From positions 1-64,000 of IMG/VR virus record IMGVR_UViG_3300033571_014591: 64,000 nt of DNA; one strand, written 5' to 3'. The notes under the pieces are model-generated. The model was given only the letters and a program-made list of their open reading frames with translations, searched no databases and had not been told where the DNA came from. Within the stretch, counting starts at the first letter, position 1. Each line of letters begins with the position of its first letter. This stretch comes from a virus. A program made the position numbers and the translations under genes. Shown piece by piece: positions 3 through 22,327 of the stretch.

Positions 3-47
3 CGGAAACGTAAGGCAAAGATTACCAAAGGTGCGGAACAGTCATGA
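3..47 (+). CDS. 3' end of an upstream gene (partial)
   Basis: An open frame enters from the left edge and encodes a basic tail ending in ...KGAEQS before TGA. That stop overlaps the ATG of thyX as ATGA, the usual coupling of adjacent phage genes. Only 14 codons are visible, so no function can be assigned. Another frame is also open to position 51, so the choice rests on the ATGA overlap. Confidence 0.4.
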   Translation, partial: RKRKAKITKGAEQS

Positions 48-961
48 GTGAGACACACGTAAAGAATGACAACGGAGTATTGCGGTACCCGGTGGTCATG
101 GATAAATACGGCGCACGGCCAGTTGTAGAAGACAGCGCACTGGCGTCAATGCCTGTGCTTGGGGACGGATGCGTTGTGCTTCTCTCCACATACGGCAGTG
201 ATCAGTCTATTGCAGACACTGCACGGGTTTCCTACGGCAAGGGCACCAAGAAGAGCAGCAATGACCGGGCGCTGTTGCGGTACCTGATGCGGCATCGTCA
301 TACCAGCCCGTTTGAGCACGCTGAGGTGTCGTTTTATCTGAGGGTGCCCATCTTTGTGATGCGGCAGTTGGTGCGCCACCGGACGGCAAACATCAATGAG
401 TACAGCGGCAGGTATTCAGAGATGCTAGACGAGTTCTACGTGCCCACTGCGTCACATATGGGGCATCAGTCTTCAACGAACAAGCAGGGGCGTGAGGGGT
501 CATTCTCCAGTGAAGACGCACATGCAGCGGGTACCCTGATGTACCACGCGCAGCAGAAGTCCTATGACACCTACCAGGAACTCCTTAACATGGACCTGTC
601 ACGGGAGCTAGCTCGGACTGTCACCAGTGTGGGGATGTTTACTGAGCTCTACTGGAAGTGCGATCTCCATAATTTCCTGCATATGCTGAAGCTTCGCACT
701 GATGTGCATGCGCAGCAGGAGATTCGTGATGTGGCTAACGCCATGTATGCCTGCATTACGCCGTTCTTTCCTGACACCATCTCGGCGTGGGAAGACTACG
801 TGCTGAATGCCCACACGTTTAGCTCGCATGAGCTGAGGATCTTGGCTGATTTAATCAACTGGCGGGAATACACCATGTACGGTGTAAGCAAGAGCGCTGG
901 AATGTCTGACAGGGAGCTGGTTGAATTTCAGGGGATGCTGAAGAAGCTAGGTAATCTCTAA
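44..961 (+). CDS. thyX: Flavin-dependent thymidylate synthase ThyX
   Basis: Makes dTMP from dUMP using methylenetetrahydrofolate, NADPH and FAD, giving the phage its own thymidylate supply. The ThyX signature RHRTANINEYSGRYS lies at residues 111-125 (the RHRxxxxxxxS motif). An RHRHTSPFEH block at 83-92 and a C-terminal LRTDVHAQQEIR segment are also typical. At 305 residues it is slightly longer than many ThyX proteins because of a short N-terminal extension. It is the last plus-strand gene before a converging minus-strand unit. It fits with the nucleotide-metabolism genes encoded opposite (a deoxyribonucleotidase and a dNTP diphosphohydrolase-like protein). Identification is strong; activity is inferred from the intact motif. 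Confidence 0.95.
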   Translation: MSETHVKNDNGVLRYPVVMDKYGARPVVEDSALASMPVLGDGCVVLLSTYGSDQSIADTARVSYGKGTKKSSNDRALLRYLMRHRHTSPFEHAEVSFYLRVPIFVMRQLVRHRTANINEYSGRYSEMLDEFYVPTASHMGHQSSTNKQGREGSFSSEDAHAAGTLMYHAQQKSYDTYQELLNMDLSRELARTVTSVGMFTELYWKCDLHNFLHMLKLRTDVHAQQEIRDVANAMYACITPFFPDTISAWEDYVLNAHTFSSHELRILADLINWREYTMYGVSKSAGMSDRELVEFQGMLKKLGNL

Positions 962-6384: not shown

Positions 6385-6751
6385 CGGGGTGTTGATTACT
6401 GTCCAGTTCCAGATCGATTCCAGCGGAAGTGGGCTGTAGAACCTCGCTTCCGGCTCTGCTGGGAGTGTCGTCCCACTCAGGGGGAGGGGCCGCAAAGAAT
6501 CCGTCTTCGGTAATGACGGCTCCACCCGTGCTCCCAGTGACGTTACTTCCAGCGTCAGCTGCGGCTGTGCCCATGTTAGCGTTGAGGCTGGTGGCAACAG
6601 GAGCATCACTAGGGGGAGCAACGACTTTCTTAGGCTTGACAGGACGAATGAGCTTCTCATAGATTTCTTTTCCTTCTGTAGAGAGTGTGTTAGCGAGCTG
6701 GTCTTCCAACCAATACTGCTGCTTCTGAGTGAGACTAAGAACGAGTGCCAC
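6341..6751 (-). CDS. Unknown protein with disordered acidic C-terminus (136 aa)
   Basis: The start is taken as GTG at 6751 because GGAGA lies just upstream; the frame is open to 6808. The N-terminal 45 residues look folded and helical (LTQKQQYWLEDQLANTL). The rest is Ala/Ser/Thr/Asp-rich and probably disordered. No family is recognised. Confidence 0.6.
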   Translation of the reverse strand: MALVLSLTQKQQYWLEDQLANTLSTEGKEIYEKLIRPVKPKKVVAPPSDAPVATSLNANMGTAAADAGSNVTGSTGGAVITEDGFFAAPPPEWDDTPSRAGSEVLQPTSAGIDLELDSNQHPDGFSADEDTDLSSN

Positions 6752-6785
6752 GATAGATTCTCCTAAGCTAAAGTGCAGCCCTGCA

Positions 6786-6980
6786 TTAGTTGTTGCATAC
6801 AGGGTCAAACGGACAGCGACCTGTGACGTAGCAGGAGCCGTGGCCCCTGCAAGGATTGCCTTCAGCCTTCATTCGGTAGAGCAGGGCTAGAATCAGGCGT
6901 TGAGTCCCCTGCTGAGGATCCACTTGCAGGGCTTCGTTCAGCATCTCCTGTGCTTTCTTCTGCATCCATTCCTGTGACAT
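6786..6980 (-). CDS. Small Cys-containing protein (64 aa)
   Basis: ATG at 6980 is preceded by GGAG at good spacing. The N-terminal half is helical; the C-terminus has four Cys (CRGHGSC...CPFDPVC) that could bind metal. It overlaps the 3' end of the upstream gene by 119 bp in another frame, which is long for this genome. Function is unknown. Confidence 0.6.
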   Translation of the reverse strand: MSQEWMQKKAQEMLNEALQVDPQQGTQRLILALLYRMKAEGNPCRGHGSCYVTGRCPFDPVCNN

Positions 6981-7227
6981 GTGACGGCTCCTGTAGTGAG
7001 GCTACGTAGCGTGTGTATTCCTTGGCGACCCAATCAACAATTAATCGGCTGCCTGCTGTAAGGCCTGCCGTGGGTGCTTCGATGCCTTGGAGATGCTGGT
7101 ACGCTGCATTTGCATAAATCCTGCCAGCGCTGCGGCGGAACTTTCGCGGCACCTCGCCCAGGATTTGTCCAATGGCTCTCTCGCTGAGGACACGCAGGAC
7201 AGCCTTAGTGGACTGTTTAGATGACAT
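6862..7227 (-). CDS. Unknown protein (121 aa)
   Basis: The start is placed at ATG 7227 (MSSKQSTKAV), inside the end of the upstream 57-codon gene; the frame is open further upstream but overlaps that gene. The N-terminal 80 residues look folded (VLRVLSERAIGQILGEVPRK). The last 40 are Ser/Ala/Glu/Pro-rich and share DNA with the next gene in another frame. No family is recognised. Confidence 0.6.
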   Translation of the reverse strand: MSSKQSTKAVLRVLSERAIGQILGEVPRKFRRSAGRIYANAAYQHLQGIEAPTAGLTAGSRLIVDWVAKEYTRYVASLQEPSHVTGMDAEESTGDAERSPASGSSAGDSTPDSSPALPNEG

Positions 7228-9628: not shown

Positions 9629-10212
9629 AGATTACTCCATTGAGAGGCCATGGCGTGGGCAATTCCCTCATAGGTGATAGAGCGCAGTTTCCACCGGTCT
9701 TCTGAGGGGCCAAGCTTGTTCTGCCCTGAGGGGGTCTGATTGTCCCAACGACCTGATTCTGGCAGAGCCAGCACGTTTGTGGGCTGCAGCAGGGGCAACC
9801 CTTTAAGCCAGAGGCATGTGGACTTGGATTCAGGATGTCCGAACTGCCAAGGTTGAATGATCTGGTCAGGTTTGCGGTAGAGCCTGCTCATGATGCCAAT
9901 GGGGTTCTCTACTGCAATGCGGTCGATGGACGCTGAGGCTAGCTTCATGAAGAAGTCAATTGATGCCTGCTGACGCCCATCTGCCTGCTTGGTTTTGAAC
10001 CACTTGGCCCCTGAGACTGCAAGGTCTGTGCAAGGTGGGTGGGCAATCATTAGGTCCCACTCACGGTCAAGGACTTCAAGCACATCACCCTGCATATGAT
10101 GATGTGAGTTGTCCTCAGCAGGGAGCAGGTCGCAGCTCCATGCTTCGTGGCCCAGGTTTGCAAAAGCACGCCTGACTACTCCGCTAAACTCACAGGCAAC
10201 CAGGACGCGCAT
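9625..10212 (-). CDS. C5 cytosine methyltransferase-like protein
   Basis: A compact 195-residue protein with hallmarks of DNA C5-methyltransferases. A SAM-binding start (VLVACEFSGVVRRAF) is followed by the catalytic PPC motif (HPPC, C61) and the ENP motif (VENP, 101-104). A classical target-recognition domain is absent, so it is shorter than host Dcm-type enzymes. Phages carry many such short forms. It may methylate phage DNA for protection or act on a nucleotide or another base position. It overlaps the next gene by 4 bp. Confidence 0.7.
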   Translation of the reverse strand: MRVLVACEFSGVVRRAFANLGHEAWSCDLLPAEDNSHHHMQGDVLEVLDREWDLMIAHPPCTDLAVSGAKWFKTKQADGRQQASIDFFMKLASASIDRIAVENPIGIMSRLYRKPDQIIQPWQFGHPESKSTCLWLKGLPLLQPTNVLALPESGRWDNQTPSGQNKLGPSEDRWKLRSITYEGIAHAMASQWSNL

Positions 10213-10377
10213 TTAATCCTCCTCAATATGTTCGGTAATTTCAAGGTCTACAAAGTGCATAGGATGAGCAATAATATGAACTACTGCAGCTGCGAAGGAG
10301 GTAAAAATGTGATCGTCTCCTTTTACTTCTGGGTCATCTGCACAGTCGTAGCAGTAATAGCGAACTTCATTGATCAT
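10213..10377 (-). CDS. Small protein with CxxC motif (54 aa)
   Basis: ATG at 10377 follows GGAG at seven bases, and the TAA directly precedes the methyltransferase-like gene's ATG. An N-terminal YYCYDC pair and later His residues (HIIAHPMHF) could bind zinc. It overlaps the upstream gene by 11 bp. Function is unknown. Confidence 0.65.
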   Translation of the reverse strand: MINEVRYYCYDCADDPEVKGDDHIFTSFAAAVVHIIAHPMHFVDLEITEHIEED

Positions 10378-10543
10378 CCCAGGTCTCCTTAAGAGCTAAT
10401 ATGTCCTCTTCTGCCTTTATTAAGCAGTCAGGGCACATATACTGCTCCTCATCTTCATTTATAGTAGGGCACAACCAGTTGGGGTCAGTGCATCTGTAGT
10501 AGTTACCGCAATAACATATATGTTCAGTGAGGTCGCACATCAT
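10367..10543 (-). CDS. Small zinc-ribbon-like protein (58 aa)
   Basis: Starts at ATG 10543, overlapping the nuclease stop as ATGA. Six Cys occur as CDLTEHICYC, CTDPNWLCP and CPDC, consistent with a structural zinc site. An acidic helical tail follows. Function is unknown; it belongs to the nuclease/methyltransferase operon. Confidence 0.65.
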   Translation of the reverse strand: MMCDLTEHICYCGNYYRCTDPNWLCPTINEDEEQYMCPDCLIKAEEDILALKETWDDQ

Positions 10544-11628
10544 TCAACCTCCAACTCGCTGATGTAACGCTTGAAGAGACCTGACCCCACCGGGTCGGCC
10601 TCGATGTGCGGAATCCAGCAGAGTTCTTCAAATTCACACCCGTAGCCGTAAGCTGGCTTGCAGTGTGAGAAGTTCTGCTTGTAGTGGGCTCTCAGGATGC
10701 CCTTGATGTCGTCAACTGTGGTGGCCTTTTGGAGGGCTTCTGAAGCATTGGCGACTTCAGCCTCCCGGATGAGCTGCTGGGCAAACCACTCGGAGGCGAT
10801 GTCCTCACGGTACATGATGGGTGCCGTCTGCGGGAACTGCTGACTGAGGAGTTCCTTGGGCATCTTGGCAACCCATTCTTCAAGGTCGGAGAATTCTTCG
10901 GCAGTGGAGAAGAGTTCCCAGCCTCGAGAGCGTTGGTATTCGTAGGAATACTGCGGCACCATGCCGAATTCCCTGTTGACCCAGCCGTAGTTGAAGATGG
11001 AGCGCTGAGTGTTGAGCTTTTCGTCCTTGTAGCCCTTGGAGAGGCCAATGACAATGCACCGCTCCACGTGGATATCTGCGGAGTGGTTAATGGCGTAAAG
11101 TGACGAATGCATCTGCACTGAGCGGCCCCAGGAGGCAATCCACTGCGGCTTGGTGGAGGAGGTGTTCTTGTAATCCACCATGCAGTAGTGGCCGTCGAAC
11201 TTGGACTTGAGCAGAAGGTCTTGACGGGCGCGGAATTTAAAGCCTCCAGGGCAGTCGAGCTCAATCCACTTCTCAGCCTCAACAAGGTCGTATTCGGCCA
11301 TCAGGAGAGGCCATACGGAGCGAATGAAGCCCCGCACTTGGCCCTCAACGAGTGCTGCCCAATCCCGGGCTGCGATCTGGTCCATGCCGCTGTCGAGGGC
11401 AGCCTGACGCACAGTGGCGCGGAGTGCCGTGAAGTCCACTGTGGAGGTCTTGGCATAGTCTTCCAGGGCTTTGTGGACTAGATTGCCGTGCAGCAGGGGC
11501 CATGCATCACGAATGCACTGAAGACCCGTGCCGCCCCACTCCCTGCTGAGGTAGCGTTTGCGACGGCACTCTTCGTCGGACGATGCGCGGGTGTAGCTAA
11601 ACAGTCGGAGTGGTTTGGTTTCGCTCAT
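10540..11628 (-). CDS. PD-(D/E)XK nuclease, Cas4/RecB-like, probable Fe-S protein
   Basis: A 362-residue nuclease with a RecB-family active site: D137 in FRARQDLLL and the D152-Y-K154 pair in MVDYKN. Cysteines at the N-terminus (ECRRKRYLS) and a C-terminal cluster (CKPAYGYGCEFEELC) match the Fe-S arrangement of Cas4 and AddB-type nucleases. Such enzymes process DNA ends in recombination. With the Sak4-like ATPase nearby it may form a phage recombination module. ATG at 11628 overlaps the upstream Cys-rich gene. Confidence 0.85.
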   Translation of the reverse strand: MSETKPLRLFSYTRASSDEECRRKRYLSREWGGTGLQCIRDAWPLLHGNLVHKALEDYAKTSTVDFTALRATVRQAALDSGMDQIAARDWAALVEGQVRGFIRSVWPLLMAEYDLVEAEKWIELDCPGGFKFRARQDLLLKSKFDGHYCMVDYKNTSSTKPQWIASWGRSVQMHSSLYAINHSADIHVERCIVIGLSKGYKDEKLNTQRSIFNYGWVNREFGMVPQYSYEYQRSRGWELFSTAEEFSDLEEWVAKMPKELLSQQFPQTAPIMYREDIASEWFAQQLIREAEVANASEALQKATTVDDIKGILRAHYKQNFSHCKPAYGYGCEFEELCWIPHIEADPVGSGLFKRYISELEVE

Positions 11629-16066: not shown

Positions 16067-16675
16067 TTACATTACCAAAGATGTTACAGGGACTCTTTCA
16101 GGTTTGGGCACGGGCCACACTAACCCCATTTGCTGCCGGGTTACCTTTGCCATGCCTGTCACATTCAGCTTCTCATCTTCTCGGTGAAAGACAAAGCCCT
16201 CAATCTCTGGAGACTCTTCTAGTTCCTGCTTGATGGCGTTAAAGAATGCAGCAGGGCTGACGTCTTCGCCACGGCAAACAATCGTTTTATGCTCCTGTAC
16301 AACAAGCTGATGAGTAATAGGCATAAACGATGCCATCAAGGTCTTGCTCAGTCTATGCGGATTGCCGTTAATTGCAGCGCCGTAAACAAGATACTTGCCC
16401 ATCTTTCTCGTAGGCATTGAATCGAAGGCTTCCCACACGGCACCACCACTGGGAGAGTTTCTAAACAGCCGTTCATCGGGCAGTCCATTTGAGTGCAGCC
16501 GGTGAATAGTCCAGCACGTGCCCTTTTGATCCCACCCAACCTCAACAGCAATGCTGTCAAGCTTGATGGTCATCAATGAACCGTTCAACTTAGCCCACTC
16601 ACTACCAGGAAACAACTCAGGCTTCGCCATACCTTGCAGATCAGACTTAAAGAGATTAGATACAGTTATTGGCAT
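16067..16675 (-). CDS. RNA ligase-like nucleotidyltransferase (DUF5565-type)
   Basis: Start ATG 16675 (MPITVSN) follows GAGGA; an in-frame ATG at 16687 is also possible. The 202 residues show covalent nucleotidyltransferase motifs: motif I TIKLDS (K38, with Ser where Gly is usual), GKYLVYGAAINGNPH at 93-107, motif IV EGFVFH at 159-164 and motif V MAKVTRQQMGL (K177). The INGNP block and spacing match the DUF5565 RNA ligase group as I remember it. It probably seals RNA breaks using ATP. The tRNA-Leu gene lies just upstream on the same strand, suggesting tRNA repair. Confidence 0.75.
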   Translation of the reverse strand: MPITVSNLFKSDLQGMAKPELFPGSEWAKLNGSLMTIKLDSIAVEVGWDQKGTCWTIHRLHSNGLPDERLFRNSPSGGAVWEAFDSMPTRKMGKYLVYGAAINGNPHRLSKTLMASFMPITHQLVVQEHKTIVCRGEDVSPAAFFNAIKQELEESPEIEGFVFHREDEKLNVTGMAKVTRQQMGLVWPVPKPERVPVTSLVM

Positions 16676-16797
16676 TGTTGTCCTCATATTAAAGTGGCCC
16701 ATCCCCTGGGGCATCCTGCTTTACAGTACAGGAAGAAAGGATGAGCCACTATCCTGTGGGTTATTAGCTTCCCAGCCCCCACAGAATCTGATTAAAT

Positions 16798-16883
16798 TGG
16801 TGCGCCCAGCAGGAGTCGAACCTGCACGACCGTAAGGCCAGCAGATTTTAAGTCTGCAGTGTCTGCCGTTCCACCATGAGCGC
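16798..16883 (-). tRNA. tRNA-Leu (anticodon UAA)
   Basis: 86 nt on the minus strand. The acceptor stem pairs GCGCTCA with TGGGCGC and ends in an encoded CCA. The anticodon stem GCAGA/TCTGC closes the loop CTTAAAA, giving anticodon TAA. The T arm is GCAGGTTCGACTCCTGC. A long variable arm (TGGCCTTACGGTCG) fits a class II tRNA-Leu. The 5' 36 nt also encode the C-terminus of the upstream protein gene. Confidence 0.93.
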
Positions 16884-17661: not shown

Positions 17662-18900
17662 CTAAAACTGCTTACCGAGGGCTCGCTCAACCTTGGTAGA
17701 ACTGTAGTCCCAAGCTTTCCAGTCCTGATGACTGTTGATCGTACAGTTCACCTTGATGCAGCCTTCGTGAATACATTCTTCTACAAACACAACACCGTTG
17801 ACAGTCCTGACATCACGCCCACTTGAGATAGCGTCTGCAAGTTTACTGCCAACTGAAACATTGTGCTTCTTGCTCGCTGGATAATACACAGTAGTGTTCT
17901 TATCCTTGCTGCCGTTGCTGTGGTAATACCTGGCGTACTCACTGGTGTCAGCAACACTATCTCCCCAGCCAGCATAACGGGCTGTAGTGTTACTGTGAGA
18001 CGGCTTGTTTGCCAGTGCATAATTAATGTCCTCATTGAGATCAATAATCAGCTTGGCATTCACGTCAGGGCGCTTCTCAGCTTCAACCAGCTCAGCTTCC
18101 ATGCGCTGTACATACAACTCATGCAGATACCGTTCCTGCCCAATAGTCTCGATTGCCTTATGGCAGTGCTCAGTTCTCACAGTCTCGACAGCGCTATAGT
18201 AGTCCACACCGTTAGTGATCATGAACGATGCTAGACATGTACCAGTGCGGCCATGACCGCCCATACAGGCAATCACAGTCTTTGCAGGCAGCTGCTCCCA
18301 CAATGATTGCCAGAAGGCCAGACCCACAGGGGGAATACCCATGTCAGTCCAGTAAAGCCTAAGCACCTCAGAGGGCAGCTCACGCTCCTTGCCCACATAC
18401 TTACTCAGCTCCTTAAAGCGTGCAGGGGCAGCAGTGGAGATAAACGGCGCAGTATTTGGTACAGACACCACACCGGCAAGATCAATAATCAGCTGCCACT
18501 TGCCGCTCCACTCATCAAGACTGCTGTTGTTGCTGGCACACAACTGCTTGCCCTGGGATTCAAAGATGACTTTGTCTCCCTTATGGCTGCATGACTTATA
18601 GCTCGTCGTTGTGCTTGAATATGGGCTGCCAGTAGTCACTGTGCTAGCTACTGTATTAGTGCCATTCTTGATGGCTTCGGGCAATGTAATCACTTTGTCT
18701 TCTCCATCAACCAGCACCAGCATACCGATGCAACCCTTCTCAGAGCACTGGGATCCGATAAAGTCTGCATCAAACTCATACTCTTGTTCGCATTCGTCGC
18801 AGACAAGAGCGATCTCACCCTCATCTGCCATGTCAGCCAAAAGTGCTGCATTGATTTCGTCAAACTCAGGATTCAGGCTGCTACTCTTATGCTTAGCCAA
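17662..18900 (-). CDS. Cysteine phosphatase (dual-specificity type) with N-terminal zinc ribbon
   Basis: A 412-residue protein. An N-terminal zinc ribbon (C34, C37, C52, C57) is followed by a Ser/Thr-rich linker. A Cys-based phosphatase domain follows, with P-loop C212-MGGHG-R218-TG and a likely general acid D186 in LYWTDMGIPP. The helix after the loop (EHCHKAIETIGQERYLHEL) matches Cdc14/DSP-type proteins. A C-terminal extension ends in a CIHEGCIKVNC segment. It overlaps the upstream swivel-domain gene by 8 bp, so they are translationally coupled. Substrate could be protein, RNA 5' end or a small molecule. Confidence 0.85.
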   Translation of the reverse strand: MAKHKSSSLNPEFDEINAALLADMADEGEIALVCDECEQEYEFDADFIGSQCSEKGCIGMLVLVDGEDKVITLPEAIKNGTNTVASTVTTGSPYSSTTTSYKSCSHKGDKVIFESQGKQLCASNNSSLDEWSGKWQLIIDLAGVVSVPNTAPFISTAAPARFKELSKYVGKERELPSEVLRLYWTDMGIPPVGLAFWQSLWEQLPAKTVIACMGGHGRTGTCLASFMITNGVDYYSAVETVRTEHCHKAIETIGQERYLHELYVQRMEAELVEAEKRPDVNAKLIIDLNEDINYALANKPSHSNTTARYAGWGDSVADTSEYARYYHSNGSKDKNTTVYYPASKKHNVSVGSKLADAISSGRDVRTVNGVVFVEECIHEGCIKVNCTINSHQDWKAWDYSSTKVERALGKQF

Positions 18901-21451
18901 GGATAAACTCTCCAGTCTTTAAGTCCAGCCTGAACCTCACGTCCAGTTGACCCTGATATAGGGTAATGAAGCCCACATCGTGAATAACCAAGAGCGGCCA
19001 ATAGTTATACACTCCGCTGCCACTCCAGCTCACAAGGGGAGTTTCACTGCCCTCATAGATTGCCTCTGCGACTGACGGCTTAAAGTACCCAGAAGGTACA
19101 AACACTGAACGACTAAGGTACTTATTAGCTACACCGTCCACAGTGAACTGCACATGAACCCCAATGACTTGCTTAAGATCATGGTTAATCGTGAAATTGC
19201 ACTGTGCCTGCTGCACTGTAGTAAACGAGGGCACTGAAGAGTTAATATTCTTCCATGCAATGTTATCTCCAGGATTCACCTTAATCGGCGGCCATGAGCT
19301 AACATCATGAGATTTATGACTACCGCTCGGCATGTTCTTAAACGAAGGCACAGGCTTCACATAAGGCGTTAAATCCTCATCCTCGTCGTAATCTTCACCG
19401 TCATCGTCATCTTCGCTAGGGTCATCGTCGTCATCACTAGTGCTTGACCCCATTATCTTGTACTTCGTGGTGCACTCACCGTTCTCAGCCCACCCAAGTG
19501 TAGAGAAGCAAGTAACGCCGCTTTTCTGATCAGAACAAGTGCGCCCCACAGTTTCCTCTTCAGTGAAGTCATACTTTGTATGGCACAATGGGCAGATGGC
19601 ACCTGTGTAATCCTTAAACTGCTCAGGGAGCTCAAGGATAGAGCATGCATAATTATCAGCTGGGGCATTCTTCTGAGCATTGCCCATATACACAGTTTGG
19701 TCTACACTACTCTTGGCTAACTGTACCTGAAGCTTGCCGCCAGGTTTTGCTTCAATCACTGAGCACTTGCCCCACTCAGCAATCAGCTCATCTACAGCAC
19801 TGCCCAGATCAGTTCGCTTCATCTTGTACATGCATGCAGCCGCCACAGACAGCGTAATCAGTGACTGCGACGATGCAAGGTCAAACCAAGACTTCTCGAT
19901 GAACTTATTGAGCCACCAGCCACCATTGTGAGCCTGATTGACAGCAACATTCAGCGCGCTCACAACCTTAGCCACTGCCTCATCTGACGGCTGATTGATC
20001 AGCTGCAGAATAGCTGCATCAAGATCAATGATGCTCTGCGTGCAGCGTGCCCACGCCTTGCCGCCGTATGAGCTGCTCCACTTAAGGTTTTCAAACATCC
20101 ACTGAGCTGTGCCCAACGTATTGCGGCTGCCCATGAAATCCTTCAGGGCCACCCTGTAGACAAACCCACGCATTGAGCCCATATCAGTGAGCTTATGGCG
20201 TGCCTCACCGTGCGATGCAGCCATGCCAGCTCGCATCATGATTGATGCACTGACGCCCAGCCAAAAACCATGATCAGCACTCATGGCACCAGCATTATGC
20301 AGCGTAGTCATCATGCTAATCAGTGCTGCATCAATCTTCAGGACATCAGATGACTTTGTTAGCCCCTTCAGCTCAAGAGGTATCACAGCACCGCAACCCA
20401 AACCGCGAATAACAGATTGCGGATCCGGCGTAGGTGTTACTGATACAGCCTCCAGCACCTCACCGATGCTTGGACGACGCGATGTAAAGCACGGCACCTT
20501 GTTGTAGAGACAGTGCACACCGTAGTGACTAATAAGCGTGCCGCCCAGCTTCACCACCACTGTACCTGGGCTGATAGTCTTTACTTGCTTCTCCCATTCG
20601 AGCAGATCACCCTCAGCATCAATGACTGCTGTGACACGAACAGGATGCGGCACATAATCAGCACCCACAGCGCTTGGAATGCGTACACCAGAGCGAATCT
20701 GTGTGAAGAAGGGGCGCGTGACTTCATTAGTTAGCACCACCTCCACATACGGATCCTCATCGGGCTTAATCCCTGCACGTGTTGTCAGTGCATTTGCGCT
20801 GTCTTCATTGAACCCGCTGCCCACTAGAGGAATAGAGATGCTCTCATAGCCAGCCGTAGCACCGTCATGGTTTGGGCCAACTGCCATGCGCGACGGTGTA
20901 ATGATGACGTTGTACATTGCATCCACAAACGGTAGCAGCAGCAATTCTGCCGCATGCTCTTCGTCAGCTTCGTTGGCTGCATTGAAGATATGCCGAATCT
21001 GTGCAGCAAAGTTCGCCAAACGCTCATCGTAGGTAAGAATGCCACCACTCTTGAACTCTACAATGCGTGATTCCTCAAAGCCGTGGCGAGCACGCACAGG
21101 GCAAGGGCGCACAAACAACCGATGAATACCCTTACCAACTGCAGCTTTCACCACTTCCTCGATATCGCTATCCTCGAGGACAATGAAATAGGGATTAGGA
21201 ACATTCAATCCCCTATGCGCCAGTGCCACAAAACCCTTAGCCTTCTGAGTGCGTGTCCTCAGATGCTTGTACTTCATTGCAGTCTTGGAGTCGAACACAC
21301 CCAAGTCAATAAAGCAGCAACTTGGCGTGTGACAGACTGCACAAACATTGCACAGTGGCATGTCACACTCAAGACAATGCTTAATCTTGCTAGACCTCAG
21401 CGGGGGAGCAGCCACGTTTCCTGCAAGTGGAACTGATGTGTTAGTTTGCAT
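18893..21451 (-). CDS. Large multidomain protein with PEP-utiliser-like swivelling-His motif
   Basis: 852 residues. An N-terminal Cys cluster (C26, C29, C34, C37, C40, C45, C46) is followed by residues about 58-290, in which FVRPCPVRARHGF resembles the ATP-binding half of PEP-synthase/dikinase proteins. Residues 303-325 (GGTLISHYGVHC...VPC) line up with the swivelling phosphohistidine domain, with H309 in the catalytic position. A helical domain, a zinc ribbon (ICPLCHTKYDF), an Asp/Glu-rich linker and a C-terminal beta domain follow. It may transfer phosphate from ATP through H309. The dikinase reading is inference; the N-terminal half is divergent. Confidence 0.55.
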   Translation of the reverse strand: MQTNTSVPLAGNVAAPPLRSSKIKHCLECDMPLCNVCAVCHTPSCCFIDLGVFDSKTAMKYKHLRTRTQKAKGFVALAHRGLNVPNPYFIVLEDSDIEEVVKAAVGKGIHRLFVRPCPVRARHGFEESRIVEFKSGGILTYDERLANFAAQIRHIFNAANEADEEHAAELLLLPFVDAMYNVIITPSRMAVGPNHDGATAGYESISIPLVGSGFNEDSANALTTRAGIKPDEDPYVEVVLTNEVTRPFFTQIRSGVRIPSAVGADYVPHPVRVTAVIDAEGDLLEWEKQVKTISPGTVVVKLGGTLISHYGVHCLYNKVPCFTSRRPSIGEVLEAVSVTPTPDPQSVIRGLGCGAVIPLELKGLTKSSDVLKIDAALISMMTTLHNAGAMSADHGFWLGVSASIMMRAGMAASHGEARHKLTDMGSMRGFVYRVALKDFMGSRNTLGTAQWMFENLKWSSSYGGKAWARCTQSIIDLDAAILQLINQPSDEAVAKVVSALNVAVNQAHNGGWWLNKFIEKSWFDLASSQSLITLSVAAACMYKMKRTDLGSAVDELIAEWGKCSVIEAKPGGKLQVQLAKSSVDQTVYMGNAQKNAPADNYACSILELPEQFKDYTGAICPLCHTKYDFTEEETVGRTCSDQKSGVTCFSTLGWAENGECTTKYKIMGSSTSDDDDDPSEDDDDGEDYDEDEDLTPYVKPVPSFKNMPSGSHKSHDVSSWPPIKVNPGDNIAWKNINSSVPSFTTVQQAQCNFTINHDLKQVIGVHVQFTVDGVANKYLSRSVFVPSGYFKPSVAEAIYEGSETPLVSWSGSGVYNYWPLLVIHDVGFITLYQGQLDVRFRLDLKTGEFILG

Positions 21452-21827
21452 GCTTGTTCACCTTCACATTCAAGTCACGATGAATTACTTTTACTTCAAT
21501 TCCCTGGTCAGCTGCCCACTTTGCTAGCAGCTCAACGATAGCGACCGATCGATGCCTGCCACCATGACAGCCAATGGTGAGGTTATGACCGTACATCCTC
21601 AACTGGAACGTCAGATTGTCAATCAATGCCCGTGTTCGCTTGCACCGCATCAGGTAATCCTGAATCTCTGTATGCGTGCCGTCAAGCGCACGATATGCCT
21701 TAACGCGCCACGGATTGATTACCGTGTTAACAACATTGATGTTCTTGGTGAGGTTAAAAGTATAGTTTGGATCATGCTCAATTTTAGGCACGCCATTCTT
21801 CACTGAATAACTCATGAGTGTGATCAT
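21441..21827 (-). CDS. Stand-alone RapZ C-terminal-like domain
   Basis: 128 residues, overlapping the swivel-domain gene by 11 bp. Residues 86-98 (GCHGGRHRSVAIV) reproduce the RapZ C-terminal signature GCTGGxHRSV. The following WAADQGIEVKVIHRDLN matches the next conserved block. The N-terminal P-loop NTPase of full RapZ is absent. In Enterobacteria the C-terminal domain senses glucosamine-6-phosphate and binds small RNAs. Here a sugar-phosphate, nucleotide or RNA ligand is possible. Tight coupling to the putative dikinase and phosphatase suggests a joint role. Confidence 0.85.
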   Translation of the reverse strand: MITLMSYSVKNGVPKIEHDPNYTFNLTKNINVVNTVINPWRVKAYRALDGTHTEIQDYLMRCKRTRALIDNLTFQLRMYGHNLTIGCHGGRHRSVAIVELLAKWAADQGIEVKVIHRDLNVKVNKHAN

Positions 21828-22001
21828 TTATGCACCTCCTGCCCAACTAATGCGGTACCCACACCCGTAATAGGGCATGTTCATTGGGCAATACACGTAG
21901 ATCTTCAAGTTAATCCTTTCGAGTATCATGTTGTGCCCACAGCTAGGGCATTTGCCCATGACAATTACCTCAGGTTCTACCACAGACTTATCTTTTGCCA
22001 T
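21828..22001 (-). CDS. Small zinc-ribbon protein (57 aa)
   Basis: ATG at 22001 follows AAGGG at seven bases; the TAA directly precedes the RapZ-like ATG. CPSC and a later C-(6)-C pair (CPMNMPYYGC) give four ligands of a zinc ribbon. It overlaps the deaminase 3' end by 25 bp. Function is unknown, possibly a partner of the cluster. Confidence 0.65.
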   Translation of the reverse strand: MAKDKSVVEPEVIVMGKCPSCGHNMILERINLKIYVYCPMNMPYYGCGYRISWAGGA

Positions 22002-22327
22002 GAATGACCCTTGGATTCTATCCAGACAAACCGAATCCCCCTTTTGGTTACACGATTAGCGCAATCAGCACAAGGAAACGAAACAACAACTGCACCGTTT
22101 CGTTTTCGTCTACCGGCAATGGCAATAGAAGCACCCTCTAATCTGGATTTATTGCTTCTACGGATTGCATGCGCTTCGGCGTGTTCACCAAACCCGTCAG
22201 GGCCAGCAGAATTCCATCCCCATGCAAACACTCCATGCTTATCAAAGATGACCGCAGCCACCTGAACTGCACAAATGCTACGCTTGGTAAGATCAACTGC
22301 TAGCTCTGACGGGCTCAATTTCTTCAT
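21977..22327 (-). CDS. Cytidine/deoxycytidylate deaminase-like protein
   Basis: 116 residues with zinc-dependent deaminase motifs: H49-A-E51 in GEHAEAHAIRR and P85-C86-A-D-C89 in FPCADCANRV. Both are in order, with about 35 residues between. The short length fits free cytidine or nucleotide deaminases. It could feed dUMP to ThyX or modify a nucleic-acid base; dCMP specificity cannot be proven from the sequence. A minimal Shine-Dalgarno (GAG) precedes ATG 22327. Confidence 0.8.
   Translation of the reverse strand: MKKLSPSELAVDLTKRSICAVQVAAVIFDKHGVFAWGWNSAGPDGFGEHAEAHAIRRSNKSRLEGASIAIAGRRKRNGAVVVSFPCADCANRVTKRGIRFVWIESKGHSWQKISLW

Follow-up and report, generated by a model that had tools for sequence, protein, structure and literature searches.

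A dikinase-like protein fused to an all-alpha domain and coupled to a phosphatase: a putative reversible phosphorylation module of phages

Introduction

What a phage might phosphorylate, and then dephosphorylate, with a dikinase-like protein whose gene overlaps that of a cysteine phosphatase is the question raised by a locus in a 64,000-nucleotide stretch of the virus record IMGVR_UViG_3300033571_014591 (hereafter the window). An earlier note on this DNA had grouped these two genes with a free RapZ domain and a deaminase into one coupled cluster, of a kind that its author did not know in phages. Our literature search found no paper treating the gene set as a module, published annotations naming single genes.

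Results

Layout of the locus

The four open reading frames, all on the minus strand, were found where the earlier note had placed them, as were both gene overlaps, the histidine H309 and the phosphatase loop. The gene for the 852-aa fused dikinase-like protein (18893..21451) overlaps by 8 bp (18893-18900) that of a 412-aa DSP/tyrosine-type cysteine phosphatase (17662..18900), which starts with a TTG codon at 18900 with GGAG upstream, and by 11 bp (21441-21451) that of a free RapZ C-terminal domain of 128 aa (RapZ-C; 21441..21827; PF22740, E=7.5e-19; pocket CHGGRHRS), within the last codons of which its own ATG lies. A dCMP/cytidine deaminase-like protein of 116 aa (21977..22327; PF00383, E=2.7e-8) is encoded about 150 bp upstream of RapZ-C, without overlap and outside the module.

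The 852-aa protein

This protein consists of an ATP-grasp region, a swivelling-His-like segment, an all-alpha domain of the phrog_20946 type and a C-terminal extension, in this order. Searched by sequence, it gave no Pfam, PHROG or PDB match of note: its N-terminal half was not matched by PF01326 (PPDK_N), and neither PF00391 nor the PEP/pyruvate barrel (PEP-utilizers_C) was detected in it by Pfam.

The ATP-grasp region (approximately residues 66-265; 20657..21256), supported by the AF2 model, Foldseek and alignment, was modelled with pLDDT values mostly of 75-92, while about half of the whole model is of low confidence, as is the acidic, CxxC-bearing C-terminal extension. Foldseek matches of the model to ATP-grasp structures reached a probability of 1.00, with modest TM-scores and with ATP-grasps of the D-Ala-D-Ala ligase type ranking above dikinases; over a longer range, rifampin phosphotransferase (5hv1, E=9.6e-4) and PPDK (1dik, E=1.1e-3) were also matched, and an unrelated fold was not indicated. 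The segment that follows (approximately residues 266-350; 20402..20656) carries a GG..SH...GVP-type motif as in swivelling phospho-His domains, its GGTLISH ending at H309, the proposed phosphohistidine (codon 20525..20527). This histidine is kept in all fused homologues covering the position, one of which (locus L006) has NDH in place of SH. Also conserved in the family are K70 (TQKA), R115 (RPCP), E237, Q251 and R253, whose PPDK_N equivalents are GGK, VRS and E...QxR. When aligned to PPDK with hhalign, the E..QxR and SH motifs fell in register, with a weak score (P=0.0067); a second alignment, to PPDK_N, was also weak (P=0.036) and still ranked above every unrelated control family. The dikinase-like guess made earlier was largely right: the N-terminal half models as an ATP-grasp and a swivelling-His-like segment, in a protein tied to a phosphatase.

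The position of the PEP/pyruvate barrel is occupied by the all-alpha domain (approximately residues 351-565; 19757..20401), which by hhalign shares homology with phrog_20946, encoded by phages as a free-standing protein (hhalign probability 97.4%, E=1.4e-11; hmmsearch against split-type phrog_20946 proteins, E from 1e-10 to 7e-14). Nine residues (E416, R418, H419, G463, G464, W467, H508, N509 and K516) are kept in 102 of 102 sequences. Foldseek returned no solved structural relative of this domain, nothing falling below E=0.4.

The phosphatase partner

The phosphatase matches the DSP/PTP family PF22784 with E=2.4e-5, slightly short of the Pfam cut-off, and in its alignment C212 and R218 of the CX5R loop (C212-MGGHG-R218; 18247..18267) and D186 of a WPD-like loop are invariant. 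In every other homologous locus of the fused type, down to about 20% identity, the kinase-like gene is directly followed by one for a DSP phosphatase, and this linkage holds against the possibility, raised earlier, that these genes are not linked in related phages. The zinc ribbons that had been read into both large proteins exist as CxxC clusters, but these are located within non-conserved extensions, outside the family core.

Split-type loci

Far from being unfamiliar in phages, the combination is widespread, mostly in a split form, and the gene set stands side by side in about 100 phage sequences. We collected 87 split-type loci (viral, phage or MAG), which run PPDK - PTP1 - alpha protein - PTP2; of 89 rows, 75 show the four genes in this order on one strand, and contig ends interrupt most of the others. 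The genes carry labels such as pyruvate phosphate dikinase, thymidylate synthase, tyrosine phosphatase and hypothetical protein, and it is because the fused protein of the window joins genes that are separate elsewhere that the link between the dikinase and alpha genes is revealed.

The split PPDKs match PPDK_N and the PEP-utilizers (phospho-His) domain strongly, and all 20 scanned have these two domains without the PEP-utilizers_C barrel (PF02896), which the same scan, as a positive control, detected in E. coli PpsA. The aligned catalytic His, E and QxR are present in 76 of 76 split PPDKs/PpsA, and CX5R in 83/87 PTP1 and 86/87 PTP2 proteins. The two forms are complementary: a separate PPDK_N occurs in five of five split-type records but was not found in any of the fused-type records searched.

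In split phages the module is located just upstream of DNA polymerase A, whose gene was found in 81 loci (a portal-position gene in 57); since the whole neighbourhood is syntenic, the linkage there partly reflects shared ancestry. In several fused phages, the module is found beside recombination genes.

Among viral_contigs, single-sequence scans with the fused proteins gave no match, whereas alignment queries did. In genome_contigs the fused query was unmatched, and an origin from a bacterial chromosome was rejected on this basis; the alpha-protein query matched four MAG contigs there, which are probably phage sequence. No match was found in plasmids.

Occasional partners

The RapZ domain named in the original cluster is real and overlaps the kinase-like gene, also in locus L006, where it is again directly upstream, but it is only an occasional partner and was rejected as a core part: clear matches occur in about one third of split-type and in few fused-type records. 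In phages overall it is nevertheless rare, a single tblastn query finding it in 76 of 50,697 records, although this contrast is not a formal test, given the relatedness of the phages and the differing sensitivities of the searches. The deaminase does not belong to the module, PF00383 being found in just one of 20 other module-bearing records.

Discussion

Proposed mechanism

The fused protein and its phosphatase probably constitute a phage-encoded reversible phosphorylation module. Its N-terminal ATP-grasp would phosphorylate H309 on the swivelling domain, as in PPDK, PEP synthase and rifampin phosphotransferase, and the phosphorylated domain would then move to an acceptor site formed not by a PEP/pyruvate barrel but by the all-alpha domain with its invariant E-R-H / GG-W / HN-K set. 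The product would be a phosphorylated compound or macromolecule, from which the translationally coupled DSP phosphatase would strip the phosphate, unless it acts on something besides the kinase product; in loci that have it, RapZ-C may bind an RNA or the product in its phosphorylated state. Because the module adjoins DNA polymerase A in split phages and recombination genes in several fused phages, our guess is that the acceptor is either a protein or a nucleotide or nucleic acid handled in genome replication.

Alternative explanations

An improbable alternative, and the best of those considered, is DNA hypermodification, in which the module would phosphorylate a base, or a base-linked sugar, in phage DNA and the phosphatase would trim it. 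The position beside DNA polymerase in split phages fits this, as do the ParB-like and sugar-modification genes of many split phages and the resistance of DNA of the module-bearing phage DLP3 to 15 restriction enzymes (PMC7326821), which is nonetheless explicable by its sugar cluster alone. PIG-L and ParB_N are absent from all fused-type records searched, and a sugar/ParB DNA-modification cluster was accordingly rejected as an obligate partner; thymidine hypermodification was rejected likewise, the thymidylate synthase/hydroxymethylase family being found in two of 44 records and ThyX in 12 of 44.

Slightly less probable is a role in host take-over or counter-defence signalling, in which the module would reversibly phosphorylate a protein of the host or a second messenger used in defence. 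The pairing of kinase with phosphatase and the RNA-regulator homologues adjoining or nearby (RapZ-C in the window, CsrA-like in others) speak for it; the location of the module among replication genes and the merely occasional presence of both regulators speak against it.

Also unlikely, in our view, is an ATP-grasp ligase in the N-terminal half, forming amide or ester bonds, with a coincidental SH motif. The top Foldseek ranks and the weak profile match to PPDK_N agree with such an enzyme, but the histidine is kept wherever fused homologues cover it, the domain order matches that of PEP synthase, the longer-range structural matches include RPH and PPDK, and the fused half is complementary to the true PPDK of split phages.

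Least probable of all is a carbon-metabolism AMG, that is, a phage dikinase making or using PEP for host carbon metabolism, as the dikinase of Vibrio phage J26 has been annotated and read (PMC12038007): it gains from the strong domain matches of the split versions and from a CsrA-like gene nearby in some phages, but is opposed by the missing barrel of the split PPDKs, by the J26 superposition on PPDK, which reaches only residues 1-527 (PMC12038007), by the accompanying alpha protein and two phosphatases, and by the fusion, in the window, of a barrel-less dikinase straight to the alpha domain.

We return to reversible phosphorylation, and lean towards the broader view that this is a widespread, undescribed system in which phrog_20946 is a new acceptor domain and the AMG-labelled 'PPDK' the kinase subunit, the window encoding its fused form. 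Phages with an annotated PPDK are now described as steering host pyruvate metabolism, yet, judged from the genomes, the split enzymes are without the pyruvate site, and the phage 'PPDK' is one of four conserved parts, the others being two phosphatases and an all-alpha protein of no known fold. Vibrio, Stenotrophomonas, Rhizobium and Rhodobacter phages in culture make the phosphorylation target accessible to direct test.

Comparison with known systems

The window RapZ-C shares with E. coli RapZ a C-terminal domain with the pocket residues G249/H252/R253, but the H190 position reads NPW rather than NPH and T248 is replaced by His, and its 128 aa are all C-terminal domain, the N-terminal kinase-like (Walker) domain being absent. 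The order of PEP synthase and PPDK, an ATP-grasp followed by a swivelling His, is that modelled for the 852-aa protein, with catalytic-type residues in register and the all-alpha domain standing in place of the PEP/pyruvate barrel. Listeria RPH, the structural match 5hv1, likewise combines an ATP-grasp and a swivelling His with a non-pyruvate acceptor; its domains are ordered ATP-grasp, substrate (RIF) domain, His, whereas the window has ATP-grasp, His, alpha domain, and the acceptor domains are unrelated. In the plant starch-phosphate cycle, a phospho-His glucan water dikinase and a DSP of the SEX4/laforin type act on one substrate, so that this cycle may serve as a works-like analogy for a dikinase paired with a dual-specificity phosphatase; the domain order is different, no carbohydrate-binding module was found, and we do not claim a shared ancestry of the pair.

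Close, too, is the split cluster of the Stenotrophomonas phages DLP_5/DLP3, the Vibrio phages VH2_2019 and J26 (the latter assigned from its paper alone), Rhizobium phage RHph_TM16 and Rhodobacter phage RcZahn, in which a dikinase, a phrog_20946 alpha protein and a DSP phosphatase also stand together; in the window the dikinase and alpha domain are fused, the ATP-grasp is much diverged, there is one phosphatase instead of two, and RapZ-C lies within the operon.

Results

Domain search recognised a phosphatase (17662-18900(-)), a RapZ-C domain (21441-21827(-)) and a deaminase (21977-22327(-)), while the 852-aa protein lying among them (18893-21451(-)) had no noteworthy sequence relative in Pfam, PHROG or PDB. 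The positions of these four ORFs and both gene overlaps, as given in the earlier note, proved exact on the window sequence. The parent IMG/VR record comprises 68,184 bases, with DNA polymerase A, Sak4-like and exonuclease genes in the left half of the window and terminase, portal and capsid genes in the right. The window also carries a ThyX-type thymidylate synthase (44-961(+), PF02511, E=3e-53), and an RNA-ligase-like gene (16067-16714(-); Pfam RLIG1 E=2e-4, under the curated cut-off; PHROG RNA ligase 4e-4) adjoined by a tRNA-Leu(taa) gene (16798-16883(-)), possibly a tRNA repair set.

A single phage relative of the 852-aa protein was found by tblastn, in a podovirus from Manatee Spring, where an overlapping 'dual specificity phosphatase' directly follows the gene. 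The two-sequence alignment used as query yielded three IMG/VR loci and a five-sequence alignment twelve more, including L020, a locus of the split type described below. A phosphatase of the same family stands immediately downstream in every locus found, mostly with overlap, and the linkage proposed earlier is therefore kept across homologues only ~20-36% identical. The deaminase, previously counted in the cluster, is without linkage to this module and was set aside.

The top conserved N-terminal positions, QKA (K70), RPCP..RHG (R115), E237, QxR (Q251, R253) and SH (H309), match the PPDK/PEP synthase motif order GGK, VRS, E...QxR, GG-SH. In the AlphaFold2 model (16-sequence alignment), pLDDT is mostly 75-92 over residues 65-350; its first PDB matches in Foldseek are ATP-grasp enzymes (probability 1.00), followed by Listeria rifampin phosphotransferase (E=9.6e-4) and PPDK (E=1.1e-3), in agreement with the dikinase-like reading of the earlier note. 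Profile comparison with phage PPDKs was weak, both full-length (P=0.0067) and for the N-terminal part (P=0.036, yet higher than all unrelated controls), and because of this we base the swivelling-His assignment on motif register, fold, order and fused/split genomic complementarity taken together.

Residues 351-565 are all-helical and no PDB relative was found for them, but they match stand-alone proteins (326-357 aa) encoded by cultured phages (phrog_20946; hmmsearch E 1e-10 to 7e-14, hhalign 97.4% / 1.4e-11). In Stenotrophomonas DLP_5, Vibrio VH2_2019, Rhizobium TM16 and Rhodobacter RcZahn this alpha protein is flanked by two phosphatases (PTP1, PTP2), and upstream lies a gene bearing the annotation kinase or pyruvate phosphate dikinase. 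Scans with it retained 80 viral and 4 MAG loci, and the order PPDK-PTP1-alpha-PTP2, in one direction, was seen in 75 of 89 locus rows (a few being records fetched twice), most others ending at contig ends. A separate PPDK_N was present in all five split-type records and in none of the fused-type records searched. E416, R418, H419, G463, G464, W467, H508, N509 and K516 are invariant in fused and split sequences (102/102), as would be expected if they formed an active site or a binding site. Linkage inside the split group partly reflects synteny within a single phage lineage; the independent evidence is the fusion itself together with the distant phages of the fused type.

Further genes accompany the split loci. 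One of ~290 aa directly after PTP2 (10068-10940 in locus L083, and equivalents), with no Pfam match, is conserved in 70 loci and may be a fifth member. A CsrA-like RNA-binding regulator lies between PPDK and PTP1 in some phages (6736-7104 in locus L055, weak Pfam match 8.5e-5; VH2_2019 gene 26), its family being present in 30 loci. The 'thymidylate synthase' label that PHROG and GenBank attach to DSP phosphatases of the module (phrog_17568; DLP_5 gp078 and gp080) is a propagated misannotation.

RapZ-C adjoins upstream and overlaps the kinase-like gene in the window and in its nearest relative (L006). The domain has no clear match in the other fused records, and 10 of 30 split-type records carry it at another place in the genome; we regard it as optional, a sensor or an RNA adaptor. 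Its pocket is CX5R-like (C-H-G-G-R-H-R-S in the window); in E. coli RapZ, H190, T248, G249, H252 and R253, with C247 nearby, form a sulphate/malonate pocket touching the RNA backbone (PMC9841335). The family pocket (PF22740, CxGGxHRS) shares the CX5R spacing with cysteine phosphatases, and PF22740 cross-matches weakly in regions at the module's phosphatase genes (G015, W02; E 0.004-0.009), possibly reflecting distant relation or convergence. Immediately before RapZ-C, a tiny ORF (~43 aa, ~21828-21960(-)) containing a CxxC motif (MGKCPSCGHNM...) ends with its stop codon against the RapZ-C start; it is possibly another zinc-ribbon gene coupled to the set.

Discussion

Anatomy and linkage are the observed part of the system; the phosphorylation cycle is a proposal, in which ATP and His would give phospho-His, AMP and Pi, the phosphoryl group would be transferred at the alpha domain to an acceptor, which the phosphatase would then return. 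Because the module adjoins DNA polymerase (81 loci) or recombination genes (loci L001, L003 and L005), a replication-linked target is suggested as acceptor. DNA of the module-bearing phage DLP3 is restriction-resistant (PMC7326821), but the usual DNA-modification genes did not track with the module among the records searched.

A role of the split PPDKs in carbon metabolism is made unlikely by the absence of the PEP-binding barrel from all 20 scanned, although the same scan detected that of E. coli PpsA; PPDK_N and the phospho-His domain were present in all 20. The authors who described Vibrio phage J26 in 2025 interpret its PPDK as an auxiliary metabolic gene, yet they report structural overlap with PPDK for residues 1-527 and give the neighbouring phosphatase and CsrA as separate items (PMC12038007).
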